NCBI RefSeq assembly: GCF_900176205.1
Contig: NZ_LT859959.1
Coordinates: 7,677,001 to 7,741,000, forward strand
Origin: Bradyrhizobium sp. ORS 285
GTDB lineage: Bacteria > Pseudomonadota > Alphaproteobacteria > Rhizobiales > Xanthobacteraceae
DNA length: 64,000 nucleotides
Reading direction: 5' to 3'
The translations under genes were made by a program, and so were the position numbers. Below the pieces are notes generated by a model. The model worked only from the letters and a program-made list of their open reading frames with translations. It ran no database searches and was not told the DNA's origin. Below are positions 3,971-22,224 of this stretch, in pieces. How positions within the stretch are numbered: the first letter of the stretch is position 1; each line of letters opens with the position of its first letter.

Positions 3971-4246
3971 CTAAAGAGTCTCCGGGCCGAGCAGGTTTAT
4001 TCGGTGTTGGGCCTTGCGGCAGGCTAGCCGCTGCCGCTCCAGCAACTCGACGTCGGCAGTCGTGAGGCCGATCGCGCGGCTCATCTCCGAGAGTTTGCTG
4101 CCGATGCGCAGCCTGTCGCTCGGACTTGTCGCTTCGTCGAGAATGGCGCGGATTTCGGCCTCAATGCTGCGGGCATTTTGCGTGGCGCGCAGCTTGAGAG
4201 CCCGATGGATTTCGTCGGAAAGTTCACGAACAGTGACAGTGGTCAT
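3971..4246 (-). CDS. FitA-like ribbon-helix-helix antitoxin, apparently orphan
   Basis: A 91-residue protein. Residues 2-40 (TVTVRELSDEIHRALKLRA, then an ...EAEIRAILDEA helix) match the Arc/FitA ribbon-helix-helix fold of plasmid-stability antitoxins that pair with PIN-domain VapC/FitB RNases. A GGAGGA Shine-Dalgarno lies 6-11 bases before the ATG. The toxin normally follows directly, but here the next 100 bases hold no PIN gene and murA comes next. The tail (ERQRLACRKAQHRINLLG) is longer than the short toxin-binding tail usually seen. It is either a solitary regulator or a remnant of a degraded toxin-antitoxin pair. Confidence 0.75.
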   Translation of the reverse strand: MTTVTVRELSDEIHRALKLRATQNARSIEAEIRAILDEATSPSDRLRIGSKLSEMSRAIGLTTADVELLERQRLACRKAQHRINLLGPETL

Positions 4247-4335
4247 GACGATGTCCTCCGTAAGAACAGCGAGAACGCCAATATCACATGCCGAGTTGCA
4301 CAGCGGCCTATCGAGAACCGCTGCGGCGTCCCTGC

Positions 4336-6858
<2,523 letters not shown>

Positions 6859-6994
6859 CTAGCGCAAAAAGACGTGCCTTAAGATATTGAAGAGATGGGT
6901 TTTTTTAACGGTTTTTCAAGTCGTCCGGGGGCCCTCTTCGGGGCTTGCGAAAGGCCGATTCGGACGGCCTTCGGGAGGTGTTCGGAAGGCGCCT

Positions 6995-7050
6995 GGAAAC
7001 GCCGCCCCGGGCGGCGTTCCAACGCGTCAGGCCGCCCGTTGGGGCGGCCT
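6995..7050. terminator. Two adjacent GC-rich hairpins between gyrB and the 718-residue gene
   Basis: The 318-base gap 6775-7092 holds no gene. It contains two hairpins: arms around GCCGCC/GGCGGC at 6995-7020, and AGGCCGCCC/GGGCGGCCT at 7029-7050. Both lie just past the stop codon of the minus-strand gene at 7093 and could end its transcript, though neither has a T-tract on that strand. A T-run at about 6899-6906 lies further downstream. The remainder should hold the gyrB promoter, which I cannot pinpoint. Confidence 0.45.
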
Positions 7051-7092
7051 GGAGCAGGGTCTCGATCGTCGTGACCGGAGAGTTTCGAAAGC

Positions 7093-9249
7093 TCAGTACA
7101 GCGGCAGCGGCAGAGCCTGGCCGGTCGGGCCGATCATCAGGCCCCAGGCGTCGCCGGCGCCGAGCTCGATCGTGTCGCTAATCGCCGCGCGGCTGGCGAT
7201 CTTGATCTCGTAGCGGTACCTGCCGGGCGGCAGATCGAGCAGCGGGCCCTTGGGCGTCTTCGGGCTGCCAGTGCCGGCGGCGATCTTGACCGTCTGCTTG
7301 TTGATCGTCAGCACCGCGTCAGACAAGCCGACATTGCCGAGCATCAGCTTGGCCTGGCCGGGCTTCGGAAGGATCTCGGCCTTCGCTGCGGCGTCCGTGT
7401 TCTTCTGCACCAGATTGATCGAGGTCTCCCCCCGGGCGCGACCGAGCGTCAGGACGGCGGGCCCTTGCGGCGAGGCGAAGGCGAGGCGTGCCTTGTCGGC
7501 GCCGGTCTGCGCACCCTCGGCCTTTTCCTGCCATCCGAGCTTGGTCAGCTCGGTGCGGTAGAATGCCAGCACGGCGCTGAGATCGGCGGGCACGCTGGCC
7601 TCGAGTTGGAGGCGTACCGGCTGATCGAAGCCAGGGGCCTTCGACGTCGACAGTGAGGTCGCGCTGCGCTCCTTCAGCACCGGCAGCACGGAGCCCGGAT
7701 CGGCTTCGAGTGGTGCCGCGTCCGCGGCCGGCTGGGCCGCGGCTTTGGCGCCGGCCGCAGGCTTGGCAGTGGCGAGCAGGCCGGTGCCATCCGCCGTCAC
7801 GTTCACCTTGGGGCCCATCTGCATGATCGTGAAGCTGACCGACTTGCCTTTCGCGGAGAAGTCCAGATGCGCCATGGTCGGATTGTCGATCACGGTCGGC
7901 GCTTCCTTGTAGCCGGCGGCCTTCAGGGTGGAGCGGAAGAAGCCGGCGAGCGCCTTCACCGATGAGCCGGACTTGAACTCCAGCCGCCCCTGGCTGCCGT
8001 CGAACTCGACCGCCTCGGCGGTCTCGGGCAGCGCGATCGGCGCGGGATTGTCGGCCAGGGCCTTGACCGGGGCGTCCGACATCGCGCCGGCCTGCTGCAC
8101 GCGGCGGACCTCGTCGGCGGCGATCACCTGCTTGGCCATCGCGGCGGCATCGGCCATGAACTTGTCGTCTGCGTCCTTCTTGGCCTTGGCGCGCGCTGCG
8201 AGCGCCGCCTCGGTGGCGCGCATCGACAGTTCGACCATGGTCAGGTCGTAGCTGCGCGACAGTTTCAGCGTGCCGGTCTCCTCTGACGAGGCGAGCTTGA
8301 GCGTCACCTCGTCAGAATTGCCCGGATCCGCCGACGCGATCTGCAGGCCGCGCGCCGGGAGTTCGCGGGTGTAGAACGCGAGCACCGCCGGCAGCTCGGC
8401 GATGATGGCGCCCTTGGCCTGACGGGTCGGCGAGGTCGCGCTGCCCAGGCTCTGCGACGATTTGGCCGGCTTTGGCATCGGCAGGCCGGCGCGATCGTCG
8501 CCCGCTTCGAGCTGGGCGGGCAGGGCGAACGGGGCGACGCGGATCTCGACCTTGGTCTTGCCGTCGTCGCGACGGGTCAACGTCAGCATCACAGGAGCCT
8601 GGCGGCGTGGTCCGTCGTTTGCGACGCGGTCGTAGAAGGCGCGCACGCCGTTCGGCGTGGTCTCGCTGAGATCCGCATTCGGCCAGCGCGCGGCGGCGTC
8701 AGCTGTGAGTAGCTGCCAGCCGATCGCGGTCATTTCCTTGGCGAAGTACGCCTGCGTCGCATCGAGCGCCGACGGCACGATGCAGGACAGATATGGCCGT
8801 GTCTCGTCGAACACGATCTCGGTCGCGCCGTCGGGGAACGGCAGGTCGGCATAGATCCGCTGCGGCGAGTAGCTGACCTCCGACTGGTCCATGCGGCCGC
8901 TGCTGCCGGTCACGTAAGCCGACAGCCCCTGCTTGCCCTTCTTGTAGTTGAGCGTCGGATTGCGCTCCTCCAGCGGCCTGACATAGCGCACCCAGCCGTC
9001 GGCGCTCAACAGCTGCTGCGTGGCCGCGTTCGTTGCCGCGGGCGGCGTCGGCAGACGGTAGATGGCGCGATAGCGATCGGAGCGCGACGAATCCTCGACC
9101 GCGCCCTCGAGGCGCGGCAGCGCATGGACGTCGACGATGGCGTCATCGGCGCGCGCCGGCGTCACGCTACTCGCGAGCAGCAACAGCCCGCATGCGAACA
9201 GCCGCAATCGCGGCGCGGCGGTGGCCTGCTGCCTGAGCTTTGACATCAC
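7093..9249 (-). CDS. Large exported protein with repeated FY-x-EL modules and a C-terminal PEGA-like region
   Basis: A 718-residue protein of unknown function. A signal peptide is clear (LRLFACGLLLLASSVTPARA, cleavage before DDAIVD). At least four segments share one pattern, an aliphatic-aromatic helix followed by short strands: ATQAYFAKEMTAIGW, VLAFYTRELPARGL, LAGFFRSTLKAAGY and VLAFYRTELTKLGW. Each is followed by a stretch ending in a TL/TI strand. An Ala/Lys-rich, possibly helical linker lies around residues 340-385. The last 80 residues (GNVGLSDAVLTINKQTVKI, then LPPGRYRYEIK) look like a PEGA-type beta domain. It sits in the gyrB-recF interval in the same direction; a periplasmic or surface role is likely but unproven. 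Confidence 0.8.
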   Translation of the reverse strand: MMSKLRQQATAAPRLRLFACGLLLLASSVTPARADDAIVDVHALPRLEGAVEDSSRSDRYRAIYRLPTPPAATNAATQQLLSADGWVRYVRPLEERNPTLNYKKGKQGLSAYVTGSSGRMDQSEVSYSPQRIYADLPFPDGATEIVFDETRPYLSCIVPSALDATQAYFAKEMTAIGWQLLTADAAARWPNADLSETTPNGVRAFYDRVANDGPRRQAPVMLTLTRRDDGKTKVEIRVAPFALPAQLEAGDDRAGLPMPKPAKSSQSLGSATSPTRQAKGAIIAELPAVLAFYTRELPARGLQIASADPGNSDEVTLKLASSEETGTLKLSRSYDLTMVELSMRATEAALAARAKAKKDADDKFMADAAAMAKQVIAADEVRRVQQAGAMSDAPVKALADNPAPIALPETAEAVEFDGSQGRLEFKSGSSVKALAGFFRSTLKAAGYKEAPTVIDNPTMAHLDFSAKGKSVSFTIMQMGPKVNVTADGTGLLATAKPAAGAKAAAQPAADAAPLEADPGSVLPVLKERSATSLSTSKAPGFDQPVRLQLEASVPADLSAVLAFYRTELTKLGWQEKAEGAQTGADKARLAFASPQGPAVLTLGRARGETSINLVQKNTDAAAKAEILPKPGQAKLMLGNVGLSDAVLTINKQTVKIAAGTGSPKTPKGPLLDLPPGRYRYEIKIASRAAISDTIELGAGDAWGLMIGPTGQALPLPLY

Positions 9250-9373
9250 AGATCTCCAGGAATTCGACGGGGGGCGTGGCCTGCGGGACGCTGTCGGACT
9301 CGGCCGACACCGTCATGCCGTCCAACGACAGCTAGTCGGGCCTGGGAACTGATAGGTTCAATCCCGGAACTTG

Positions 9374-10510
9374 TTACCGCCTTGCGGTGATCCGGCCGCC
9401 CTCGACGTCGAAGATCTCGCCGAGCTCGCGCAACTCGGCGAACGCGGCCGGGTCGGCGCCGGTCAGCCACACCTGGGCACCGAGTGTGCCGAGCTCTGCA
9501 AACAACGCGGTGCGGCGGCCGGGATCGAGATGGGCGACGATCTCGTCGAGTAGCAGCATCGGTACGATGCCGGTGGTCTCAGCGACCAAGGTCGCATGCG
9601 CGAGGATGAGGCCGATCAGCAGCGCCTTCTGCTCGCCGGTCGAGGCATCGCGCGCCGGCATGTTCTTCGGTGCGTAGATGACGTGCAGGTCGGTGAGGTG
9701 CGGACCGTCGAGCGTACGCCCGGCGGCGGCGTCGCGCGCGCGATTGTCGCGCAGCATCGCGCGATAGCGGTCCTCGACCGCGAGCGCGGGCTCGGTGAGC
9801 AGTGCGTTCTCCATCCAGCCGTCGAGCGCGATTTCGGCGGAGGGAAATGCCGAGGCCGCCCCGCGCTGGCGCAGCATCGCGGCGAGCTTCACCGCGGTCT
9901 GGCCGCGGCTCGCGGCGACGGCGACGGCAAGCTCGGCCGTCTCGCGCTCGATCGCGTCACACCAATGGTCGTCGAAATTGCGCACCTCGAGCAGCCGGTT
10001 GCGCGAGCGCAACGAGCGCTCCAGCGCCGAGACGCGGCTGGAATGCTCGCTGTCGATGGCGAGCACCAGGCGATCGAAGAAGCGGCGGCGGTCGGAGGCC
10101 GAACCCATGAACAGGCCGTCCATGGCGGGCGTCAGCCACACCATGCGGATGTGATCGCCGAATGCGGCCGCTGAGCCGACCGGCTCGCGATCGATGCGGC
10201 AGCGCCTTGTCGTGCTCGTCTCGCCGCGCGGCGGCTCGATGCCGGTGCCGAAGGTCGTCAGTCCCAGTGCGCCCTCGACCTCGGCCGAGACCGCCCAGGA
10301 GCCGTCGCCCTGATTGTCGGCGACATCCTCCAGAGTGGCCCGGCGCAGGCCGCGGCCCGGTGCGAAGAACGAGATCGCCTCCAGGCAATTGGTCTTGCCG
10401 GCGCCGTTCGCTCCCACCAGCGCCACCAAATCCGCCTGCACGCTGACACCAGCCGCGCGATAGCTGCGGAAATGCGTCAGCGACAGGCGATTGATGCGGG
10501 AGGGGGTCAT
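9374..10510 (-). CDS. recF: DNA replication and repair protein RecF
   Basis: A 378-residue SMC-like ATPase that helps load RecA at single-strand gaps and helps restart replication. The Walker A motif GANGAGKTNCLEAIS begins near residue 33, the ABC-type signature is STGEQKALLIGLILAHA, and the Walker B is MLLLDEIVAHLD. The N terminus (INRLSLTHFRSYR) is the usual RecF opening. It lies in the order dnaA, dnaN, recF, gyrB, although a small GIY-YIG gene intervenes between dnaN and recF. The ATG at 10510 has an AAGGAGTT-like sequence only on the other strand, so the start rests on homology. Confidence 0.95.
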   Translation of the reverse strand: MTPSRINRLSLTHFRSYRAAGVSVQADLVALVGANGAGKTNCLEAISFFAPGRGLRRATLEDVADNQGDGSWAVSAEVEGALGLTTFGTGIEPPRGETSTTRRCRIDREPVGSAAAFGDHIRMVWLTPAMDGLFMGSASDRRRFFDRLVLAIDSEHSSRVSALERSLRSRNRLLEVRNFDDHWCDAIERETAELAVAVAASRGQTAVKLAAMLRQRGAASAFPSAEIALDGWMENALLTEPALAVEDRYRAMLRDNRARDAAAGRTLDGPHLTDLHVIYAPKNMPARDASTGEQKALLIGLILAHATLVAETTGIVPMLLLDEIVAHLDPGRRTALFAELGTLGAQVWLTGADPAAFAELRELGEIFDVEGGRITARR

Positions 10511-10535
10511 CAGAAGGAGTTACAAGCCCAGTTCT

Positions 10536-10901
10536 GTCATTGCCGGGCTTGACCCGGCAATCCATCGTCAGCGTCAGCGGACTATTTCATCATAGAGATC
10601 GCGCCAATCCGGATTGTTTTTGACGATCAGATCGATCTTCCATTCGCGCGACCAGTGCTTGATGTTCTTCTCACGCTGCAATGCTGCGGCGATCGTTTCA
10701 TGTGCTTCGAAATAGACCAGCCGCTTGATGCCGTAGCGTCTGGTGAAGCTCTCTGCGACGCCTTCGCGATGCTCATACACGCGCCGAACGAGATCGTTGG
10801 TCACGCCGACATAGAGCGTGCCGCCGGGCTTGCTGGCGAGGATGTACACCCAGTAGGCCATGTGTTGAGATGGATGGCCGGGTCAAGCCCGGCCATGACG
10901 A
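10536..10901. mobile_element. Putative palindrome-bracketed GIY-YIG unit
   Basis: The left arm at 10536-10566 (GTCATTGCCGGGCTTGACCC...) and the right arm at 10869-10901 are inverted copies of one another, differing at about two of 31 positions. Each arm is also a small hairpin in itself (TTGCCGGG/CCCGGCAA at 10540-10560 and ATGGCCGGG/CCCGGCCAT at 10874-10896). The whole interval between them is one GIY-YIG gene. A related element without a gene, with the same two arms around a short loop, is at 16966-17052. The arrangement suggests a gene carried inside a palindromic repeat; mobility is an inference. Confidence 0.55.
10574..10861 (-). CDS. Small GIY-YIG nuclease-family protein
   Basis: A 95-residue single-domain protein of the GIY-YIG superfamily (UPF0213/YhbQ-like). 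The GIY-YIG strand pair is YWVYILASKPGGTLYVGVTN, followed by the catalytic Arg (DLVRRVYEH) and a downstream Glu/Lys region (AALQREKNIKHWSREWKI). The key Tyr, Arg and Glu positions look intact, so nuclease activity is possible. No extra DNA-binding domain is attached. It interrupts the dnaN-recF spacing and is flanked on both sides by inverted palindromic sequences. Proteins of this size are common and multi-copy in alphaproteobacteria, and their physiological substrate is not established. Confidence 0.9.
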   Translation of the reverse strand: MAYWVYILASKPGGTLYVGVTNDLVRRVYEHREGVAESFTRRYGIKRLVYFEAHETIAAALQREKNIKHWSREWKIDLIVKNNPDWRDLYDEIVR

Positions 10902-10932
10902 GTTAACCACAAATCTCGCCGCTTGCGTGAAA

Positions 10933-12051
10933 TCACACCCGCATCGGCATCAGCACGTACAGCGCGTTGCGATTGTCACGATCCTGGATCAAGGTCGGCG
11001 AGCCCGGATCGGCCAGCCGGAGCACCGCGACCTGGCCCTCGATCTGGGCGGCGATGTCGAGCAGATAGCGCGAGTTGAAGCCGATATCGAGCGCGTCGGC
11101 GGCGTATTCGACCTCGAGCTCTTCCGTCGCGCTGCCGGAATCCGGATTGGTCACCGACAGCACCAGCTTGCCGGGGGCGAGGGCGAGCTTCACCGCGCGG
11201 CCGCGCTCGGAGGAGATGGTGGAGACGCGGTCGACGGCGGCGGCGAAATCGGCCTTGTCGACGACGAGCTCCTTGTCGTTGTTCTGCGGAATGACGCGGC
11301 CATAGTCCGGGAAGGTGCCGTCGATCAGCTTGGAGGTGAGAACCACCTGTCCCAAGGTGAAGCGGATCTTGCCCTGCGACAGCTCGATCTTGATCTCGCT
11401 GTCATTGTCTTCGATCAGCCGCTGCACCTCGCCGACGGTCTTGCGCGGCACGATGACGCCGGGCATCTCGGCCGCGCCGGCGGGCTGCGGCAGGTCGACC
11501 TGGGCGAGGCGGTGGCCGTCGGTTGCGACCGCACGCAAGGTGGGTTGCTTGGCATTGCCGCCGGCATGCAGATAGATGCCGTTCAAGTAATAACGTGTCT
11601 CCTCGGTGGAGATCGCGAACTGCGTGCGGTCGATCAGGCTCTTGATGTCCTTGGCGGGAACGCCGAAGGCATGCGTCATTTCGCCCGCCGCCAGATCAGG
11701 GAAGTCGCTCTCGGGCAAGGTCTGCAAAGTGAACTTCGAACGGCCGGCGCGGATCGCGAGCACCGCGCGCTCGCCGTCGCTTTCCAGCACGATCTGCGAG
11801 CCGTCCGGCAGCTTGCGCACGATGTCGTAGAACATATGCGCGGGGACCGTGGTGGAACCTGCGGTCGCGGTCTCGGCCGCCAGCGTTTCCGTCACTTCGA
11901 GGTCGAGGTCGGTGGCGCGCAGCGACAGCCGGGCATTCTCGGCGCGGACCAGAACGTTACCCAGGATCGGGATCGTGTTCCTGCGCTCGACCACGCGATG
12001 GACATGGCCCAGCGACTTCAGCAGCTGCGCGCGTTCGACGGTCACCTTCAT
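10933..12051 (-). CDS. dnaN: DNA polymerase III subunit beta (sliding clamp)
   Basis: A 372-residue clamp that encircles DNA and tethers Pol III. The start MKVTVERAQLLKSLGHV and the motif ERRNTIPILGNVL are characteristic; a longer in-frame extension upstream has no family similarity. The three clamp domains follow, with a C-terminal LYVLMPMRV typical of DnaN. It lies downstream of dnaA in the same direction, about 300 bases away. The gene looks normal in length and composition. Confidence 0.97.
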   Translation of the reverse strand: MKVTVERAQLLKSLGHVHRVVERRNTIPILGNVLVRAENARLSLRATDLDLEVTETLAAETATAGSTTVPAHMFYDIVRKLPDGSQIVLESDGERAVLAIRAGRSKFTLQTLPESDFPDLAAGEMTHAFGVPAKDIKSLIDRTQFAISTEETRYYLNGIYLHAGGNAKQPTLRAVATDGHRLAQVDLPQPAGAAEMPGVIVPRKTVGEVQRLIEDNDSEIKIELSQGKIRFTLGQVVLTSKLIDGTFPDYGRVIPQNNDKELVVDKADFAAAVDRVSTISSERGRAVKLALAPGKLVLSVTNPDSGSATEELEVEYAADALDIGFNSRYLLDIAAQIEGQVAVLRLADPGSPTLIQDRDNRNALYVLMPMRV

Positions 12052-12358
12052 TGCACTATCCCGCCCGTTCCCAACTGAGCTCGTCCTGGAATGCCGGCGG
12101 GCTGGAACAGCGCCGCGGCCGATGGCACCTCGCCGCCCGAACAGCGCTTTTTCAGCGTCCAGGAGCGTGAGGGGGAGGCGTAAAGTGGCGCGGATGAGGC
12201 CCGAGCGCAAGGGATTGCGGGCCGATTTCCCATGTTTCGGCAGGCGTTTCGGCGCGCCGGGGATCTGGTCGGAGGTCGGTGGTTTTGCGGGCCAACCGCG
12301 GCTGGGGCCGGACCTTCTGTCCGCGCCCCCTAGCCGATCGGTTGGTGGTGCGGGTGAA
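12052..12358. other. dnaA-dnaN intergenic spacer
   Basis: About 307 bases with no convincing gene, no strong hairpin with a T-tract and no DnaA-box cluster that I can see. It is GC-rich like the coding regions around it. It probably carries the leader, and perhaps a promoter, of dnaN. Confidence 0.6.
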
Positions 12359-13789
12359 CTAGTCCTGCAACTGCCGCTTGAGCGACTCGACCTCGTCGTT
12401 CAGCGTGATGTCCTTGCCGACCAGCGCCTCGATCTTGCGCACGGCATGCAGGACGGTGGTGTGGTCGCGCCCGCCGAAGCGGCGGCCGATCTCGGGCAGG
12501 GATCGCAGGGTCAGCGTCTTGGCCAGGTACATCGCAACCTGGCGCGGGCGCACCACATTGGCGGTGCGGCGCGACGACAAGAGGTCGGAGCGGCTGACAT
12601 TGTACTGCCGGGCGACGACGCGCTGGATGTCCTCGATCTTGATCCGCTTCGGCTCCTGCGGACGGACCAGGTCTCGTACCTCGCGCTCGGCCATGTCGAG
12701 CGTGACCGGCTGATTGTTGAGCTTCGAATGCGCGAGCAGGCGGTTGATCGCGCCTTCGAGGTCGCGGCCGTTATGGGTGATGGAGCGGGCGAGATAGTCG
12801 AGCACCGGCTCCGGCACGTCGAAGCTCGCATGATGCGCACGGGCCGCAGCGACGCGCGATTTGAGAATGCCCAGGCGCAGATCTTCGCCAAGCGTGGCCA
12901 TCTCGACGACGAGGCCGCCGGCGAGCCGCGAGCGGACGCGATCGTCGAGGCTTTCGAGATCGGACGGCGGCCGGTCGGCCGCGATCACCACCTGGCGGCC
13001 GGCGTCGATCAGTGCGTTCAGCGTGTGACAGAACTCGGCCTGGGTCGATTTGCCCTGCAGGAACTGCAGATCGTCGATCACCAGAACGTCGATGCCGCGC
13101 AGCGCTTCCTTGAAAGCCAGTGCGGTCTGCGATTTCAGCGCCGCGACGAAGCCGTACATGAACTTCTCGGCGGTGAGATACAGCACCTTGCGCTCGCCGC
13201 CGGCATTGCCGGCCCAGGTCACGGCCTGCAAGAGGTGCGTCTTGCCGAGGCCGACGCCGGCATGGATGTAGAGCGGGTTGAACATCACGGGATCGCCGCG
13301 GCGGCCATCCGCGACCTGGCGAGCGGCGGCATGCGCGAGCGTGTTGGCGCGACCGACGACGAAGCTCGCGAAAGTCAGGCGCGGATCGAGCGGCGAGCCG
13401 CCGAGCGCATCATGGCCGGCCGCGACCGGAGTCATCATCGGAGCGCGTGTATCGGCGACGGGCTTGGCGTCGCTGCGCTCGGTGCGGCGCGCTTCCACCG
13501 GCGCCGGCGCTTCCTTGGCCGGCGTCGCGCAACGCATCGCGGTGCGAACGGACAGATCGATGCGGTGAACTTCGGGCATCTCGGCCTGCCAGCACGACAG
13601 CACGCGCTCGGCATAATGCGCCTGAATCCAGCTCTTCAGGAAACGCGTCGGCACCGACAGATGAACGCTTTCGTCCTGGACAGCTTCGAGGTCCATGCGG
13701 GCGAACCAGCTCGTATAGACGTCCTCGCCGACGGTCGAGCGCAGCCGACCCTTCACGCGAGACCAGCGTTCCTGTTCCGAATTTGTCAT
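12359..13789 (-). CDS. dnaA: Chromosomal replication initiator protein DnaA
   Basis: A 476-residue AAA+ initiator that binds DnaA boxes and opens the origin. The start [16 protein letters not shown], with domain I reading [13 protein letters not shown], fits rhizobial DnaA; the frame is open 51 codons further but that part is not DnaA-like. Domain II is the variable Ala/Pro/Glu-rich stretch at roughly residues 85-130. Walker A is [15 protein letters not shown], Walker B is [13 protein letters not shown], and sensor elements follow. Domain IV ends with the DNA-binding signature [16 protein letters not shown]. It begins the minus-strand dnaA-dnaN-recF-gyrB run. Confidence 0.97.
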
Positions 13790-15053
13790 GGCAGTCGCAA
13801 CTTTTCGAATTGAGTGGTGGTGTCGTGTGACCGCCGGGCAGACGTCCAAATGAAAAAGACGCATCTGCCGCAGCGAGACCTCGAGCGGAGGTTCAACTCC
13901 AGACATGGCTTGCCGTTCGGCGCGCGCGCCGTCGGGCATCATCGATGCTGGGGAAGAAAAGTCTCCGCGAGGTCAGCGCATACTCGGACGCGCGATGGAG
14001 GCGGGGGGCGGGCCGATGGCCGTGCTGGTGATGGCCGCGCTGGCGATGTCGATCACTTCGGTCTCTAAGGGTGCGTGATCCGGAACCAGCCTCTGGCGTT
14101 TACCCGCAATGTGTCCGTAAAGCATGCAACCTCCCCGCCTTACCGTGATCGCTCACGGCAAGTTGTCATCCCAATGCCGGTGTGTCCGAACCCCAAGATT
14201 CAGCCGCACCGCCGTCAATCCCGTCCAACTTTTCCACCCGCTGAGCGCAGCCGCCGCAAGCTTCAGCCGGTCGACCGACGTCGTATTTCTCTTGTTCAAA
14301 GCGGCGCAACGATGATGCTGCGCCCGAGAAATTTCGACAACATTCAGTCGCTCCCCATATTGCTATGGAGATTGATCCGGCCACCGCTTTGGAAAGCGTC
14401 GCCAACGCGCACACCGCCGCCGATTTGCACGTCCGCCCCGTTTCTAAAACCGCGCTGGTCTCAAGATCGTGGGCGCCGCGAGTGGATAAAAGAAATACAC
14501 GATGCGTCGGGACTCGCAATCCATTTGATTTGCGCACGCCTGACGAGTCTTCGCGCACCTCGCCGCGCGATGATCGGCGTTAAGAAAGCAAGGTTTTGAA
14601 TCATCGCGAGGAATCTCGGATGTGACAAACAACATGGTCTGCGCAAAATTTCTTCATAATTTTTTTAACTTTGGACCGAGCTCACCCGCTTTTCCAATCA
14701 CTTGGACTCGCTATGCGCTTAAGTCATTTTCGAGACGATGTTTTTCGCGATTGCTCGCAGCGGGTAACTCCCGTCGCGTGCGCTGCGTGAAGCGAGCGGG
14801 GCATCTGCGCTCTTGACATTGATGCGCAGCCACAACGCGCAGATTCGCAGCTGTTTCCGGTGAGACAATATTGTCACCGCGTAAAACTACGGAACGATAC
14901 GTAGGACTACGGAACGTGTCAGGCGCGCGCGACAGTGCGTGTGTTCCAGCACGCGGAGAATGCATTGTTGCGATGATGTCGCCATGAACTAGAAGGCAAG
15001 AACTAGAAGGCAAGCCGATGCGATGAACGAGAAGCGCCGCCACGGGCGTGCGC
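13790..15053. other. dnaA-rpsT intergenic region, weak origin candidate
   Basis: About 1.3 kb with no convincing gene; open frames here have no recognisable protein character. The stretch is distinctly more AT-rich than the rest of the window, especially 14645-14673. Near-matches to the DnaA box TTATCCACA occur at 14481-14489 (complement strand, 8 of 9) and 14230-14238 (7 of 9), which is few for an origin. Short direct repeats occur: ACTACGGAACG at 14886 and 14906, and a perfect 14-base tandem pair AACTAGAAGGCAAG at 14987-15014. It should also contain the dnaA promoter. Assignment as oriC is speculative, because alphaproteobacterial origins often lie elsewhere. Confidence 0.3.
14864..14875. 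promoter_or_regulatory. 12 bp perfect palindrome GACAATATTGTC
   Basis: A perfect palindrome inside the dnaA-rpsT gap, with partial flanking symmetry (GTGA before, CACC after). It could be an operator or a protein-binding site. No gene start adjoins it, so its target is unknown. Confidence 0.35.
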
Positions 15054-15081
15054 AAAAGAAAAGCCCGGCGCGAGCCGGGCT
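15054..15081 (-). terminator. Rho-independent terminator of rpsT
   Basis: On the minus strand, AGCCCGGC and GCCGGGCT form a perfect 8 bp stem with a 4-base loop, followed by TTTCTTTTG. It lies about 55 bases past the rpsT stop codon and fits a classical intrinsic terminator. Confidence 0.85.
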
Positions 15082-15135
15082 GTTTGCATCTTGATAGTTC
15101 GTCAGTCGCGCGATGTGTTCAGTCGCGCGATGGGC

Positions 15136-15402
15136 TCACTTCGCGAGCTTCGCGATCTGATGCACGAGGCGCGAGACTTTGCGGCTGGCGTTGTTCTTGT
15201 GAATGATGTTGCGCTGGGCGGCGCGCATCAGCTGCGGCTCGGCGTTGGCCATCGCCTTCAGCGCGGCGTCGCGGTCGCCCTTCTTGATCGCGTCCTCGAC
15301 GGAACGGACAGCGCCGCGCATCTGAGTGCGACGCGACTTGTTGATGATGGTGCGGCGGGCAATCTTGCGCGTCGCTTTCTTCGCGGAGGTCGTGTTGGCC
15401 AT
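15136..15402 (-). CDS. rpsT: 30S ribosomal protein S20
   Basis: An 88-residue basic ribosomal protein of the small subunit that binds 16S rRNA. The N terminus [17 protein letters not shown] and the C-terminal [19 protein letters not shown] are characteristic of S20. The ATG at 15402 is preceded by AAGGAT at suitable spacing, while the longer open frame upstream has no S20 similarity. The neighbourhood rpsT next to dnaA is common in this group. A strong intrinsic terminator follows. Confidence 0.97.
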
Positions 15403-15761
15403 GCTCTCAAATATCCTTCGGCGGCGAGCAGTCGCCGCTTGTGCGGGTACGCGCGCGGCCCGCTTGACGCGGCCCCATCGACGCGGTGGGTTGTTCGGAC
15501 GCCTCTCTGAGAATGCCATGACCGGAGCGGTTGCTCGGCGGATCGGCGCTGCTCAAAGAACAGCGGCGGCGGGATTGCGCCCACCGCCAGTGGCGGACCT
15601 TATAGGCGCAGCCTTACCGACCGTCAACGGTCTCGGAAGCCGCATCGCGCGCCGGAACCGGTCAAAAGCCGGTTCTAAACCCCTGACGAGGTTGAATTTC
15701 TAAGGAGGCCCCGCTATGGCCTTGCTGCCCGTGGGGGCGAGCGAGAGAGGGCAGGTGAGGC

Positions 15762-16079
15762 ATGATCCGCGGTTTTTTCCGCCTGGTGGGGCTGTTGCTG
15801 CTGGCCGGAAGCTTCATTTTCCTGGTCTATGACGGCGCCCGCTGGGTCGCCGACCAGACCCTGCAGTTCACCCGCTTCGGCCAGCTCTGGAACGACGTCC
15901 ACCAGGCCAGCCAGGCCGCCTTCAAGGCCTGGGTCGAGGCCAAGGCCCCGTTTCTGTGGGAGTGGATCGTCAAGGCCTTCCTCGACCAGCCGGTCTTCGC
16001 CGTGCTCGGCCTGCTCGGGATCCTCTTGATGCTGCTGTTCCGGCCGCGCAAGCCGCTGATCGGCTATGGCCGCGACTGA
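15762..16079 (+). CDS. Small conserved inner-membrane protein
   Basis: A 105-residue protein with two predicted membrane helices: FFRLVGLLLLAGSFIFLVY near the N terminus and PVFAVLGLLGILLMLLF near the C terminus. Between them is an amphipathic, Trp- and Phe-rich stretch (FGQLWNDVHQASQAAFKAWV). The short tail RPRKPLIGYGRD is basic and probably cytoplasmic. A GTGAGG precedes the ATG. I do not know a function for this family; it looks conserved in Bradyrhizobium-like genomes. It lies just upstream of msrA in the same direction but with 120 bases between them. Confidence 0.75.
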   Translation: MIRGFFRLVGLLLLAGSFIFLVYDGARWVADQTLQFTRFGQLWNDVHQASQAAFKAWVEAKAPFLWEWIVKAFLDQPVFAVLGLLGILLMLLFRPRKPLIGYGRD

Positions 16080-16155
16080 CCGCCCGCAAGCGGCGTAACA
16101 CCGCTGGGGCTGGCGTCGTAGAGACCTATATAATCCCAGACTGACCGTCATCGCG

Positions 16156-16176
16156 CCGCGGGACTCTCTCCCGCGG
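16156..16176 (+). promoter_or_regulatory. GC hairpin in the msrA leader
   Basis: CCGCGGGA and TCCCGCGG form a perfect 8 bp stem with a 5-base loop, ending 26 bases before the msrA ATG. There is no T-tract, so it is not a clear terminator. It could influence translation or mRNA stability. A TATAAT hexamer at 16129-16134 could be a -10 element, but no good -35 was seen. Confidence 0.35.
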
Positions 16177-16202
16177 GCGAATGCCATGCCCGGAGACACC
16201 CC

Positions 16203-16859
16203 ATGTTCTTCATGCGCAAACCCGCTGCGATGCCGAGCGCCGCCGAGGCGCTGCCCGGCCGCGCCCAGCCGATCCCGACCGCGAGCACCCATTTCGTCAA
16301 CGGCCGCCGCCTGCTGCCGCCCTATCCCGCCGGCCTCGAGCAGGCCGTGTTCGGGCTCGGCTGCTTCTGGGGCGCCGAGCGCAAGTTCTGGCAGCTCGGC
16401 GACGGCATCCATGTCACGGCCGTGGGCTATGCCGGCGGTCACACGCCGAACCCGACCTATGAGGAGGTGTGCTCGGGTCTGACGGCGCATACCGAGGTCG
16501 TGCTGGTCGTGTTCGATCCCAAGGTGATGTCCTATGAGCGTCTCCTGAAGACGTTCTGGGAGAACCACGATCCGACCCAGGGCATGCGCCAGGGCAACGA
16601 CGTCGGCACGCAATATCGCTCGGCGATCTACACGTTCAGCGATGCGCAGCGTGAGACGGCCGAGGCCTCGAAGCAAGTCTATGAGCAGGCGCTGCGCGCC
16701 AAGGGGCTCGACGCGATCACGACCGAGATCGCGCCGTCCGGACCGTTCTACTTCGCCGAGGACTACCACCAGCAATATCTGGCCAAGAACCCGGCCGGCT
16801 ATTGTGGCCTCGGCGGCACCGGCGTCGCGTGTCCGATCGGTGTCGGCGTCAGCGCCTGA
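16203..16859 (+). CDS. msrA: Peptide methionine-(S)-S-oxide reductase MsrA
   Basis: A 218-residue repair enzyme that reduces methionine-S-sulfoxide in proteins using thioredoxin. The catalytic motif GCFWG is present with the nucleophile at Cys54, close to E. coli Cys51. The family blocks [17 protein letters not shown] and GTQYRSAIY follow. The C terminus [14 protein letters not shown] carries two Cys at spacing suited to resolving residues, as in the long E. coli-type MsrA. The N-terminal extension before residue 45 is also E. coli-like. No msrB adjoins it. Confidence 0.95.
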
Positions 16860-16965
16860 CCGGCGCAGCGCGCGACCCACACACCTCTCCCGTCCGGCGG
16901 GCAGGGCTATCGCCCATATGAAGTTCGGAGCCATCCGGACGAACGATCCTGCCGGTTTGTTACTC

Positions 16966-17052
16966 CGTCATGCCCGGGCTGTCCCGGGCATCCACGCCGT
17001 CCCCCGGCATGCTGACCGACGTGGATGGCCGGGACAAGCCCGGCCATGACGA
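16966..17052. repeat. Palindromic repeat, TGCCCGGGC/GGCCGGG family
   Basis: The left arm at 16966-16996 and the right arm at 17020-17052 are imperfect inverted copies around a 23-base loop; each arm is also a local hairpin (TGCCCGGG/CCCGGGCA on the left, TGGCCGGG/CCCGGCCA on the right). The same arms bracket the GIY-YIG gene at 10536-10901. It occupies the middle of the 337-base gap 16860-17196, which otherwise holds only the promoter side of the next gene. Confidence 0.8.
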
Positions 17053-17196
17053 GTGGAGAGAGACGAGCGCCAAACTTTGTCATACGCGATAGCCTGGTTC
17101 GACAGGGCGCGGATTTTTCGCAGCTGATTTGCAACAGATCTCGCTTGCGACAGACGGCGACTGCACGCGCCAACGATTTGTTAACCTTAACCGCGC

Positions 17197-17946
17197 ATGA
17201 CTAGGGCACATCCTCATTCAAGGATTGTTCGAGTGCGCGCGTTGTTTCTTCCGGTCATTGCCGTCGTTTCCACGATCCTGCTGTCGGGTTGCATGCACAC
17301 GGCCTCCCCCGTGGCTGTGGCCCAGCCGAGTGATCTCGACGCAATGGCCTATGGGACACCTTCGACCGGCCCGGTTGCCGCCACCGGGCAGGGCGGAGCG
17401 ATCCCCGCGCTGCGCAACGCCTTCGCCGCCGCGCCCAGTCCGGGCGCTTACGTCATGCCCGCCGGCTACGCGCCGGGGCGGCGCGACGCCGCCTATCATC
17501 TCGATGCCGGCGACAAGCTGCGCGTCGTCGTCTACGGCCAGGAGGGCCTGACCAACACCTATGCGATCGATGCGTCCGGCTCGATCACCATGCCGCTGAT
17601 CGGCAGCGTGCCCGCGCGTGGCCGCACCACCGCGGGCCTCGCCGCCGAGATCACCGCCAAGCTGCGCAACGGCTACATCCGCGAGCCGTCGGTCGCAGTC
17701 GAGATCGAAGCCTATCGCCCGTTCTTCATCCTCGGCGAGGTGCAGGCGCCCGGCCAATATCCGTACGTGCCCAACATGACAGTCGAGAGCGCGATCGCCA
17801 TCGCCGGCGGCTTCTCGCCGCGGGCTCGGCGCGACATCGTGACTCTGACTCACACGGACCCCTCGGGCGCCATGCGTTACGAGGTGCCGCTCGGCACGTC
17901 GCTCAAGCCCGGCGATACGATTCAGGTCGGCGAGCGCTGGTTTTGA
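17197..17946 (+). CDS. Polysaccharide export outer-membrane lipoprotein (Wza/OMA family)
   Basis: A 249-residue lipoprotein. A type II signal peptide ends at the lipobox LLSGC (Cys near residue 32). The Poly_export domain follows (YHLDAGDKLRVVVYGQEGL, then GSITMPLIGSVPARGRTT) and then an SLBB-like segment (PFFILGEVQAPGQYPYVPN). It would form part of the periplasm-to-surface channel for exopolysaccharide. It is smaller than Wza (about 380 residues), as is usual for rhizobial stand-alone members. No co-polymerase, glycosyltransferase or polymerase gene adjoins it, so which polysaccharide it serves is unknown. The ATG at 17197 has a poor Shine-Dalgarno; the GTG at 17233 is an alternative. Confidence 0.85.
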   Translation: MTRAHPHSRIVRVRALFLPVIAVVSTILLSGCMHTASPVAVAQPSDLDAMAYGTPSTGPVAATGQGGAIPALRNAFAAAPSPGAYVMPAGYAPGRRDAAYHLDAGDKLRVVVYGQEGLTNTYAIDASGSITMPLIGSVPARGRTTAGLAAEITAKLRNGYIREPSVAVEIEAYRPFFILGEVQAPGQYPYVPNMTVESAIAIAGGFSPRARRDIVTLTHTDPSGAMRYEVPLGTSLKPGDTIQVGERWF

Positions 17947-18010
17947 ATTCCGCGTCAATGGTTCCTGCGCACCCGGAAACATGTTCGCGGAATGAAGCGA
18001 CGCTGCATCC

Positions 18011-18100
18011 TCCGTCATTGCGAGCGTAGCGAAGAAATCCAGGGGCGTCACGCGCGGTCCTGGATTGCTTCGTCGCTTCGCTTCTCGCAATGACGACGGA
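18011..18100. repeat. Palindromic repeat, CGTCATTGCGAGCG family (second copy)
   Basis: The arms TCCGTCATTGCGAGCGTAGC... (18011-18043) and its complement (18059-18100) resemble the unit at 2476-2552. It lies between convergent genes, just past the stop of the dienelactone hydrolase gene, and may serve as a bidirectional terminator. Confidence 0.75.
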
Positions 18101-18106
18101 GGAAGA

Positions 18107-18778
18107 TCAGCGCAGATGCTGCGCGAAGAACGCCAGGCTGCGCGTCCAGGCGAGATCCGAACTCGCCTTGTCGTAGCTGGCGCGCTCGTCACAGCCGAAG
18201 CCGTGCTGGGCGCCGGGATAGACGAAGATCTCGACATCCGGCCGCTTGGCCTTGATCGTCTTGACGTCGGCGAGCGGAATGCCTGAGTCCTTCTCGCCGA
18301 AATGCAGCTGGGTCGGCACGGTCGGCTTGTCATCGGCGAAGCGCACGACCGCGCCGCCATAATAGCCGACAGCGGCCTTCAACCCGGTGAGCTTGGTCGC
18401 CGCCGCGTAGGCGATGCTGCCGCCGAGGCAGAAGCCGATGATGCCGACCGGGCCTGTGCCCTTCACCGCATCGATCGCAGCCTGGGTATCGCGCAGGAAC
18501 GCCTGCCAATCCGGATTGGCCACGAACTTCCGCGCCACGGCGATTTCATCGGGCGAATAGCCCGAGGTGAAGTTCGGCTCGACGCGGTCGAAGATCGCCG
18601 GCGCGATGGCGACATAGCCTTCGGCGGCGAGCCGGTCGCAGACGTTGCGGATGTGATGGTTGACGCCGAAAATCTCCTGGATCACGACCAGCGCGCCCTT
18701 GGGCGTTCCGGTCGGGTCGGCCCTGTAGGCGCCGAGCTGGAAGCCGTCCGATGCGGTGAGCTTGATGTCCTGTCCCAC
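18107..18778 (-). CDS. Dienelactone hydrolase family protein
   Basis: A 223-residue cytoplasmic alpha/beta hydrolase. The nucleophile elbow is GFCLGG, giving the Cys nucleophile typical of dienelactone hydrolases. The catalytic Asp is likely in FGEKDSGIP and the His in YPGAQHGFGC. The N-terminal motif ALVVIQEIFGVNHHIRNVCDRLA is the family signature that includes the conserved Glu. The start is GTG at 18778 with AAAGGACA upstream. Family members hydrolyse 4-carboxymethylenebutenolide in aromatic catabolism, but many homologues have unknown substrates. No aromatic-degradation operon is visible here. Confidence 0.9.
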   Translation of the reverse strand: MGQDIKLTASDGFQLGAYRADPTGTPKGALVVIQEIFGVNHHIRNVCDRLAAEGYVAIAPAIFDRVEPNFTSGYSPDEIAVARKFVANPDWQAFLRDTQAAIDAVKGTGPVGIIGFCLGGSIAYAAATKLTGLKAAVGYYGGAVVRFADDKPTVPTQLHFGEKDSGIPLADVKTIKAKRPDVEIFVYPGAQHGFGCDERASYDKASSDLAWTRSLAFFAQHLR

Positions 18779-18809
18779 GTTCTGTCCTTTGCAAATTGGC
18801 GCCTCGCGC

Positions 18810-19190
18810 TCAGCGCCACATCCAGTTGGTGCCGTAGTCCTCTTTCCAACCCGTCAGCCGCCCCTTGCGGAACTTGAGAAACAGGCGGTGATGGTGCGGG
18901 ACCAGTCCGCTGCCGCCGAGATCGCGCAAGGCGAGGAAGGTCTCGTTGCCTGGCGTGCCCTCCAGATAGATCAACGGCTGCGCCAGCACGCGCGATGTCT
19001 CCCCGACATCCATGCCGAAGGCAAGCGGCGACACGTTGGATAACGTCGCTGTGAAAGGGGCGCGGGTCATCGAGAGCGGCGGAGGCTGCGCCGCTTCGGC
19101 TTGCTCCGCGATCAGCACAGCGGTGAGCGGCAGGGCAGATGCAAGCATCGCGGCGGCGGCGCGCCGATTGGCGTAGGCCTGTAATCTCAT
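18810..19190 (-). CDS. Small exported protein of unknown function
   Basis: A 126-residue protein with an N-terminal signal peptide (RAAAAMLASALPLTAVLIAE, probable cleavage after AEA). The mature part has no motif I recognise; it contains a His run (VPHHHRLFLKF) and ends GTNWMWR. A GAGGAGACG Shine-Dalgarno precedes the ATG. It lies 31 bases upstream of the dienelactone hydrolase gene in the same direction, so the two may be co-transcribed. Confidence 0.7.
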   Translation of the reverse strand: MRLQAYANRRAAAAMLASALPLTAVLIAEQAEAAQPPPLSMTRAPFTATLSNVSPLAFGMDVGETSRVLAQPLIYLEGTPGNETFLALRDLGGSGLVPHHHRLFLKFRKGRLTGWKEDYGTNWMWR

Positions 19191-19444
19191 GAGCTGACGT
19201 CTCCTCGCGTGCCGCCGACTGCAGCCTTCTTAGCCGATGCGGCGCAGCGATCCCACAGCTTCTGCGTTGCACAACCCGAATTGCCGATTTCTTTCGCAAA
19301 GCGGTGTTCCAAATTCCGTTGCGTCGTTCCGCCAACGCGATCATTCTTTCGCGCAGGCTGGCATCGAACCGGTGGGTGCTGGCGTCCAGACAAACCGAAC
19401 TTCGCCGTAAGCGAAGTCGTAACGCCGGGCGGGGAAGAAACCAA

Positions 19445-19933
19445 ATGCCTAATCTCACCATCAATGGGCGGACCATGTCCGTCGATGCGGCGAACGATAC
19501 GCCGCTGCTATGGGTCATCCGCGAGCAGTTGCAGATGACCGGCACCAAGTTCGGCTGCGGCGCCGGGTTGTGCGGCGCGTGCACCGTGCATGTCAATGGC
19601 GAGGCGGTGCGCTCGTGCCAGACCATGGTCGGCGACGTCAAGGACAAGAAGATCACCACCATCGAGGGCCTGTCGCAGAAGGGCGACCATCCCTTGCAGA
19701 AGGCGTGGATCGCCGAGCAGGTGCCGCAATGCGGCTACTGCCAATCGGGGCAGATCATGCAGGCGGCCTCGCTGCTCGCCAAGACGACGAGCCCGACCAA
19801 GGAGGAGATCACAGCGCATATGGACGGCAATCTCTGCCGCTGCATGACCTATTCGCGGATCCAGAAAGCGATCCAGCGCGCCGCATCCGAGATGCGCACC
19901 GCCTCGAACACCAGCGACCGGAGGGCGACATGA
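19445..19933 (+). CDS. iorA: Molybdenum hydroxylase [2Fe-2S] small subunit (isoquinoline 1-oxidoreductase alpha-like)
   Basis: A 162-residue iron-sulfur subunit of the xanthine dehydrogenase family. The plant-type [2Fe-2S] cluster ligands are C38, C43, C46 and C58 ([16 protein letters not shown]). The second cluster uses C96, C99, C131 and C133 ([10 protein letters not shown] and CRCMTY). It would pass electrons from the molybdenum site in the partner subunit. The start [15 protein letters not shown] follows a GGGGAAG sequence; the open frame upstream is not family-like. The stop overlaps the next start by 4 bases, so the two are co-translated. The symbol reflects the closest known pair, not a proven substrate. 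Confidence 0.9.
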
Positions 19934-22224
19934 ACCAGCACGTGAAAGCAGCGCCCGCCATGACCCCAGATATGGCCACTGATCTCAGCCGCCGCTCCTT
20001 CCTGGTCGGCACCGCCGCAACCGGCCTCGTGCTCGGCTATGCCGGCCTCGCCGATTCCGCGCTCGCGGCCACCACGCCCTCGGCGTTCGAGCCGTCCGTG
20101 TGGTACTCGATCGCGCCGGATGGCCTGGTCACCGTGACTTGCGGCAAGGCCGACATGGGCCAGCACATTGCCTCCACCATGGCGCAGATCGTCTGCGAGG
20201 AGCTGGGCGCGGCCTGGAAGGACATGCGCGTCCAGCTCGCCTCCAACGATCCGAAGTTCAACGATCCCGTGCTCGGCGCCCAGATTACCGGCGGCAGTTG
20301 GAGCACAATGATGAACTTCGACGCCATGAGCCGCGCCGGCGCCGCTGGCCGCATCGCGCTCACCGAAGCGGCTGCGACCTCCATGGGCGTGCCCGCCAAG
20401 GAGCTCGTGGTGCGTGACGGCCTCGTCATGCATCCGAAGTCGAAGAAGCAGATGAGCTATGCCGAGATCGTCAAGAGCGGCAAGATCACCAAGAGCTTCA
20501 CGCCGGACGAACTGAAGGCGATCACGCTGAAGACGCCCGACCAATACACGATGATCGGCGTCTCGGTGCCGCAGCTCGACATCCCCTCGAAGACCAACGG
20601 CACGGCGAAGTACGGTATCGATACGATGCTGCCGGGCATGGTCTACGGCAAGGTGGTGACGCCGCCGGTGCGCTTCGGCGCCACCGTCACGTCGGTGGAT
20701 GACAGCGAGGCGAAGAAGGTCCCCGGCTTCATCAAGGCGGTCGTGCTCGACGACAAGACCGGCTCGACGTCGGGCTGGGTGGTCGCGGTCGCCTCGACCT
20801 TCGCCAACGCCAAGAAGGCGGCGGACGCGCTCAAGATCAGCTACGACAAGGGCCCGTACGCCAATGTCAGTACCGACACCATCATCACCGAGGCGATGCG
20901 GCTGCAGGCGCAGGACGATGCCGGGCAGTTCTTCGTCAAGGACGGCGATGCCAATGCGGCGCTCGCCGGTGCGGTGAAGGTGCTGGAAGCGGAGTACACC
21001 ACCAGCATCAACATCCACGCGCCGATGGAGCCGATGAACGCGACCGCCGAGTTCAAGGGCGACATCCTGCACATCTACTCCGGCAATCAGTTCGCGACCC
21101 GCTCCGGCGCGATCGCGGCGGGCGCTGCCGGGATCGATCCCAAGTACGTCGTGATGCACCAGGCCTGGCTCGGCGGCGGCTTCGGCCGCAGGCTGGACGC
21201 CGACATGATGGTGCCGGCGGTGCAGGCGGCGAAGGCGGTCGGCAAGCCGGTCAAGGTGATCTATTCCCGCGAGAACGACATGACGATGGACTACTCGCGG
21301 CCGCTCACCTACCAGAAAGTGAAGGCCGGTCTCGACGCCAGCGGCAAGCTGGTCGCGCTCAGCCACGACGTGGTCTCGGCCTGGCCGACGGCGCGCTGGG
21401 GCATCCCGGACTTCCTGTCACCTTCGGTCGACAAGAAGGGCCCGCTCGACTCGTTCACGGTCAACGGCGCCGACTTCTTCTACACCGTGCCGAACCACCA
21501 TGTGCGCGCGATCAAGAACGAGCTCGCGCACAATGCGACGCCGTCCGGGCAGCTCCGCTCGGTGGCGCCGGGTTGGACGTTCTGGGCGGTCGAGAGCATG
21601 ATCGACGAGATCGCCGCCGCCTCGGGCCAGGATCCGGCGCAGTTCCGCATCGCGCTGCTCGACGGCAAGGGCAAGAACGATGGCGGCGCGCAGCGGCTGC
21701 GCAACACGCTGCTCGCAGCGATGGGCCTGTCCGGCTACGGCGCGAAGAAGCTGCCAAAGGGCGAGGGCATGGGCGTCGCCTGCGTGTCGTCGCAGGAGCG
21801 CGCAACCGCGAGCTGGACGGCGTGTGTCGCGCATGTCGCGGTGGCCGACAACGGCGCTGTCACGGTGAAGAAGCTCACCGTGGCGACCGATGTCGGCACG
21901 CAGGTGCATCCCGACAACATCCGCGCCCAGGTCGAGGGCGCGGCGCTGTGGGGATTGTCGCTGGCGATGTACGAGAAGGCGACGTTGAAGGATGGCGGCA
22001 TCGAGCAGACCAACTTCGACAGCTACACGCCGTTGCGCATGAGCCAGGTGCCGGAGGTCGCGATCGCCGTGATCGCCAATGGCGAGAAGGCAACCGGCGT
22101 CGGCGAGCCTGCTGTCACGGTGGTCGCTCCGGCGCTCGGCAACGCCATCTACAATGCCTGCGGCGCGCGGTTGCGCTCGCTGCCGATTACCGCGGAGGCG
22201 GTGAAGGCGGCGATGAAGGCGTAG
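19930..22224 (+). CDS. iorB: Molybdenum hydroxylase large subunit (isoquinoline 1-oxidoreductase beta-like)
   Basis: A 764-residue molybdopterin-cytosine-dinucleotide-binding subunit. The N terminus has a twin-arginine signal ([17 protein letters not shown]), so the complex is probably exported folded to the periplasm with its partner. The Moco-binding loop [13 protein letters not shown] and the C-terminal [17 protein letters not shown], with the catalytic Glu, are present. Members oxidise aldehydes or N-heterocycles with water as oxygen donor. A cytochrome c subunit or XdhC-type maturation gene, sometimes found alongside, is not in this neighbourhood. A strong terminator follows. Confidence 0.92.

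Follow-up and report, generated by a model that had tools for sequence, protein, structure and literature searches.

A GIY-YIG nuclease gene carried between outward-facing CGTC REPs in Bradyrhizobium: a candidate REP-nuclease-REP cassette

Why should a small nuclease gene stand between two inverted copies of a repeat, and does this arrangement belong to one locus or to a family of genes? The question arises in a window of 64,000 nucleotides (the whole stretch of Bradyrhizobium sp. ORS 285 DNA that was analysed), in which a GIY-YIG nuclease gene of 95 amino acids (PF01541, E 5.8e-16) occupies positions 10574..10861 of the minus strand. Its neighbours, also on the minus strand, are the open reading frames 9374..10510 (downstream) and 10933..12210 (upstream), which we take to be recF and dnaN, and the adjacency of both is conserved; the upstream frame is given as listed, its true start being probably internal. 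An inverted-repeat search returns two arms of 31 nt each, 10536-10566 (the 3' arm, plus strand) and 10869-10899 (the 5' arm, minus strand, upstream in the reading direction of the gene), lying 302 nt apart and complementary at 29/31 positions (94%; locus L116). The preliminary description of this DNA had reported 31-base inverted copies with about two differences around a GIY-YIG gene in the dnaN-recF interval, and both parts of that statement are borne out. The flanks of the gene have an inverted-repeat score of 25, compared with a maximum of 15 in 2000 dinucleotide shuffles and a maximum of 15 at the other placements in the window (n=1022).

Each arm also forms a hairpin by itself: GTC leads into a 9-bp stem with the loop CTTGA, and CCA follows the second strand. 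Read on the strand of the gene, the 5' arm is CGTC-ATGGCCGGG-CTTGA-CCCGGCCAT-CCA, with its CCA tail towards the gene, and the GTC ends of both arms face outward. The available part of the survey of CGTC REPs by Di Nocera et al. (2013, PMC3733652) describes elements with an unpaired CGTC (or TGTC/CCTC) end, a stem of 8-9 bp that begins with AT, a loop of 4-5 bases and a CCA-like tail, mostly paired and found chiefly in alpha-proteobacteria, with the dRS3 repeats of Neisseria classed as CGTC-1. These hallmarks (unpaired CGTC, stem, loop and CCA-like tail) are present in the window arms, which share with the superfamily the CGTC tag, a 9-bp stem, a 5-base loop, the CCA tail and pairing; the arms are CGTC-tagged REPs with their tags outward.

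Dispersed and mostly paired copies, a further trait of CGTC REPs, are seen in this genome as well. In the 7.8-Mb one-contig genome, arms like those of the window are found at 67+69 places when at most 3 mismatches are allowed (0 for a reversed-pattern control), and among the 30 best-matching arms 25 have a second arm no more than 150 bp away, two of the other five being the arms of the window gene itself. One gene-less doublet lies within the window at 16966..17052, with its heads outward and its left arm imperfect; the right arm, 17023-17050, was found by pattern scan, and the inverted-repeat search returned no pair at this place. It had been described as a gene-less version of the same palindrome, and it is indeed a relative, but of a sister type (loop CTTGT versus CTTGA) and with one imperfect arm. 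A microRNA family of Rfam matches the doublet at 41.9 bits, against a cut-off of 95 bits, and is taken as a chance match to a palindrome. The genome contains two more members of the nuclease family, each flanked on both sides by its own, different REPs, and a long fifth GIY-YIG match, by its length presumably UvrC-like, has no bracketing arms.

The generality of the bracketing was assessed in three samples, comprising 80 loci kept of 512 confirmed relatives on named genome contigs, 30 loci drawn from 146 Bradyrhizobium genomes (a match being present in 141), and the next 60 matches from the 146-genome list, of which 6 are again dnaN-recF loci. One orthologous dnaN-recF site, shared by Bradyrhizobium and Rhodopseudomonas, accounts for 51 of the first 110 loci. 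Inverted-repeat scores of at least 18 are found at 51/51 of these dnaN-recF loci, at 39/58 loci elsewhere (L074, with an upstream flank of <60 bases, is unscored) and at 51/60 of the further Bradyrhizobium loci, and in controls, where 25 random placements were tried at each locus and the highest score was kept, this level is reached in 0/51, 0/58 and 0/60 cases. Two kinds of counter-example were named in the preliminary description, dnaN-recF copies without palindromes and family members elsewhere without any association; the scored dnaN-recF copies all have inverted arms, and so do most members at other sites.

A generic detector, which looks for GTC, a hairpin and CC, finds outward hairpins on both sides at 169/202 partly redundant loci (L001, from a different subfamily, is excluded). 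When loci are grouped into site clusters by flank similarity, a procedure in which diverged orthologous sites may count twice, both-sided outward tagged hairpins are present in at least half of the copies in 46/59 clusters (two of them at exactly half) and in 3/1015 controls, which is the comparison of bracketed genes with random expectation that had been called for. Some tagged hairpin is present in at least half of the copies in 57/59 clusters and 131/1015 controls, and at a stricter threshold the corresponding figures are 41/59 and 1/1015 for the both-sided pattern and 56/59 and 77/1015 for any tagged hairpin. The two-sided pattern is not reached in 13/59 site clusters. Taking the first member of each cluster, a CCA end is seen on 143/161 tagged hairpins, the GTC and the CC being required by the detector itself. 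The association of GIY-YIG gene and REP is thus general for this family. It does not extend to all GIY-YIG genes, since a different small GIY-YIG subfamily of the same genus is bracketed at 0/30 loci in all three measures.

Two GIY-YIG matches lie about 4-9 kb apart in five Bradyrhizobium contigs (G020:C20, G037:C175, G041:C97, G087:C1 and G133:C13), with arm types that differ in some pairs. The flanking repeats of one clade (L199, L202 and L203) resemble Br-REP1 and Br-REP2 of B. japonicum, and the words GIY and endonuclease are absent from the available part of the paper describing these (PMC5082802).

The type of repeat follows the type of protein. On a tree of 85 proteins, built from few columns, with many forks unresolved and with near-copies that favour clustering, the arm-type label changes 17 times, against a shuffled mean of 43.4 and with 0/200 shuffles as low; the regular expressions that define the labels were composed after the arms had been inspected. 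Arm similarity increases with protein identity among 57 site representatives (Mantel r 0.33, with 1/2000 permutations as high). At a site beside a gene that is presumably rmuC, type-C arms mostly accompany close relatives of the type-C protein and type-D arms mostly distant ones, with mixed cases. Arm type agrees with protein clade, and in this respect the repeats described here depart from the 2013 account as far as that is available (PMC3733652), in that their types are tied to GIY-YIG genes.

In the protein itself, residues Y17, G19, R27, H31, R63, E64 and W70 are identical in 60/60 representatives and K68 in 59, and all but the last two of these eight, W70 and K68, are assumed by us to have catalytic roles. 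Comparison of the window gene with 22 dnaN-recF copies and with L053, from another site, gives dN/dS values of 0.036-0.181, many of them at dS >1, and the gene is under purifying selection; internal stops are present in 6/110 loci, two of which share one protein. An AlphaFold model of the window protein has a pLDDT of 91.4 and a pTM of 0.84, and a fold search with it places UPF0213 (1zg2) first (E 1.9e-5, the sole match <0.001) and Slx1 next (E 5e-3). The closest solved sequences are likewise UPF0213 (PDB 1zg2 and 1ywl), setting aside WD-40 chains without a passing stretch, and these entries are titled as hypothetical proteins or structural-genomics targets. Slx1, going by the titles of its entries, differs from the window protein in being larger and in working with Slx4 on branched DNA. 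A homing endonuclease in a self-splicing intron was considered and rejected: the gene lies between two whole open reading frames, recF and dnaN, and the 6 Rfam matches at E<=1 in positions 4000-20000 include no group I intron.

In Azospirillum and Sphingobium, gene and repeats occur together or are missing together. A. lipoferum 4B carries the cassette between sufB and sufC; 12 records cover at least 80% of this sufB-sufC query, the whole of which is found in 4B only, the matches in the other 11 ending at 81-82%, and the three of these 11 whose sequence was read have no cassette. The Sphingobium query is covered at 97-100% by 7 records, and in four relatives with 81-90% coverage the cassette is absent; a solo palindrome is seen at one of these four sites and an imperfect form of it at another, the remaining two having no such repeat. 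The solo palindrome stands at the position of the cassette with tags at both ends, as if the outer halves of the arms had been joined. It has a single exact place in its record, which speaks against a common repeat, and it is therefore taken as a fusion scar. Both palindromes (L346 and, in imperfect form, L348) are carried by Sphingobium plasmids, with fnrL on one side and a response regulator gene on the other.

At the dnaN-recF site, 29 intervals were read from 30 genomes without gene A, the nuclease of the window type (one locus has no dnaN, and long intervals were viewed in part). L237 (genome G002) retains both arms together with the beginning of the GIY-YIG gene; it may be an internally deleted cassette and so hint at how a cassette could turn into a gene-less doublet. 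An end of the right arm is retained in L243, L249, L252, L260 and L262, a sister-type arm is present in L238, L242, L243 and L251, and the rest of the intervals hold other sequence. Cassette loss has left remnants in 6/29 intervals, and loss is presumed for others. A pristine empty dnaN-recF site was not found among the 29, and neither a clean-ended insertion nor a target duplication was found for the window doublet in genome G065, at the Azospirillum and Sphingobium sites or at Azospirillum doublets; the window doublet is absent from G065, where the flanks have diverged, and two Azospirillum doublets compared for empty sites have no clean boundary. REPs outlast the gene or occur without it: type-A arms, those of the window type, are found in 135/146 Bradyrhizobium genomes, and 36 of the 146 are scored as having gene A by a cut on E-value.

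Taken together we favor, with a probability of about 0.68, the reading that the unit is a REP-nuclease-REP cassette, in which the GIY-YIG gene lies between head-outward CGTC REPs that its enzyme recognises and the gene-less doublets are non-autonomous partners. An Slx1-like nuclease encoded within its own REP pair would be the autonomous partner of the doublets, which would be miniature, non-autonomous forms of the cassette. The enzyme would cut its own REP, folded into a single-stranded hairpin or a cruciform, close to the GTC tag, an activity suggested by the Slx1-like fold and by the Ssn nuclease reported from Neisseria. After the cut, host repair or strand exchange could copy gene-less doublets or keep them in trans. 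The nuclease would in this way spread its REP. GIY-YIG enzymes are hydrolytic and are not known to have strand-transfer activity, and dissemination would therefore require host repair. The dnaN-recF copy is old, occurring in both Bradyrhizobium and Rhodopseudomonas, and some lineages have lost it, a behaviour resembling that of RAYT genes.

The preliminary description had drawn an analogy to REP-associated RAYT transposases with a different nuclease fold. Its architectural part stands: as in RAYT, REPtron and REPIN systems (compare PMC3733652), there is a REP-bounded gene, a clade-tied repeat type, gene-less doublets and a long-lived copy. The enzyme is another matter, since RAYT systems have an HUH tyrosine transposase and a GTAG tag, whereas the cassette has a GIY-YIG nuclease and a CGTC tag; the RAYT hallmark of a Y1_Tnp enzyme between REPs is absent, the window protein being a PF01541 GIY-YIG protein. 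Among the matches listed in a literature search, as judged by titles and the openings of abstracts, no published link between GIY-YIG proteins and REPs was found. A GIY-YIG gene and RayT are named as separate clade-specific genes in the available part of one paper (PMC9465073).

In the most serious competing account, which we consider less likely, the nuclease cuts single strands, is specific for the repeat and serves to regulate DNA uptake or recombination, with REPs as targets that are multiplied by other means and not spread by the nuclease. Its model is Ssn, which Chenal and colleagues are said to have described in 2025 as a family of GIY-YIG single-strand nucleases, with thousands of homologues, acting on a Neisseria repeat. 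The small protein is reportedly paired with a repeat in hundreds of copies, cuts single-stranded DNA site-specifically and has a role in Neisseria natural transformation, and its homologues reportedly have sequences of their own. In view of this reported work on the Neisseria homologue, the earlier remark that GIY-YIG proteins of this size have no firm biological role is probably outdated. By this definition the window protein is Ssn-like, being a small single-domain PF01541 protein of 95 amino acids with the motif residues kept in 60/60 representatives, from a family paired with a many-copy repeat. A homologue in Neisseria gonorrhoeae, 53% identical, has ATTCCC..GGGAAT repeats around the gene, which is the dRS3 pattern in the available part of PMC3898611, and this favors an Ssn-type nuclease, as does an old dnaN-recF copy fixed at one site.

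Copy numbers point the same way once hosts are matched. Across 146 unmatched genomes, with gene presence set by our own cut on the best E-value, the median number of type-A repeats is 17 in the 36 genomes with gene A and 6 in those without (p 6.5e-8), and type-A counts are unrelated to the presence of gene C/D (p 0.76); type-C repeats number 10 in the 59 genomes with gene C/D and 4 in the others (p 9.6e-5), and are unrelated to gene A (p 0.15). In 29 pairs with and without gene A matched by recF similarity, type A differs by +11 (p 0.034) and type C by +6 (p 0.006), so that specificity is lost, type C differing along with type A, and in the closest 15 pairs neither type A (p 0.19) nor type C (p 0.33) is significant. 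The count data are therefore only suggestive of a link between gene and repeat, one that weakens with hosts matched. An Ssn-type nuclease alone, however, leaves unexplained why, at 46/59 clusters, half or more of the copies have the gene between its own targets with the tags facing outward, and why the whole cassette is either there or missing.

It is very improbable that the gene was a hitch-hiker, bracketed by chance by REPs that a RAYT or an insertion sequence had spread and copied thereafter as a bracketed gene. REPs are abundant and there are genomes with REPs but without the gene, as hitch-hiking would have it, but the arms differ between protein clades, a second small GIY-YIG subfamily of the same genus has none, and homologues in other phyla or classes are also repeat-bracketed (a set without a control). 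A RAYT as driver of the window arms is rejected on the ground of the single Y1_Tnp match of the genome, which is weak (24.4 bits), is located elsewhere than the GIY-YIG cassette and has no window-type arm within its 3.3-kb locus. Least likely of all are arms that merely terminate transcription or stabilise RNA beside a housekeeping nuclease, for although they lie 7 bases past the stop codon and 7 bases ahead of the start codon, which would place the 3' arm, and possibly the 5' arm too, in the transcript, such a role does not account for the two-sided outward tags, the co-variation with the protein, the genome-wide doublets of the same geometry or the lack of such arms at 30 loci of the other small subfamily.

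REPs are common in bacteria, and in the available part of the 2013 survey CGTC repeats are reported without association to transposase genes, leaving the class without a dedicated enzyme (PMC3733652). Here, in many alpha-proteobacteria and in some examples outside them, the type of repeat is tied to that of the nuclease, and many enzyme-target pairs are supplied for work on specificity. If the nuclease also spreads the repeats, DNA would be moved without a transposase.

Homologues outside the alpha-proteobacteria were sought in phage and plasmid records. Phage records with a homologue number 14, at 34-41% identity. In the plasmid collection, which includes the chromosome-sized records NZ_CP119142.1 and NZ_AP026896.1 (2.2 and 4.9 Mb), there are 37 such records, and 16 were fetched; 10 of these 16, for which there is no control, have inverted repeats scoring 26-70 around the gene (nine alpha-proteobacteria and Neisseria gonorrhoeae), and the remaining 6 score 7-12. 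The Aeromonas homologue has a palindrome on each side but no outward pair, those of Photobacterium, R. tumorigenes and one Sinorhizobium have a palindrome on a single side, and those of Spirosoma and Planktothrix have palindromes of different sequence. A tentative extension, to which we give less credence than to the cassette itself, would regard the alpha-proteobacterial CGTC REPs, the Neisseria dRS3 repeats and the palindromes of the other homologues as miniatures of one autonomous REP-GIY-YIG-REP class, propagating by hydrolytic hairpin cutting and host repair with no transposase. On the Planktothrix plasmid (L336), the homologue is situated between genes annotated as a type IIL restriction-modification gene and DISARM drmA.
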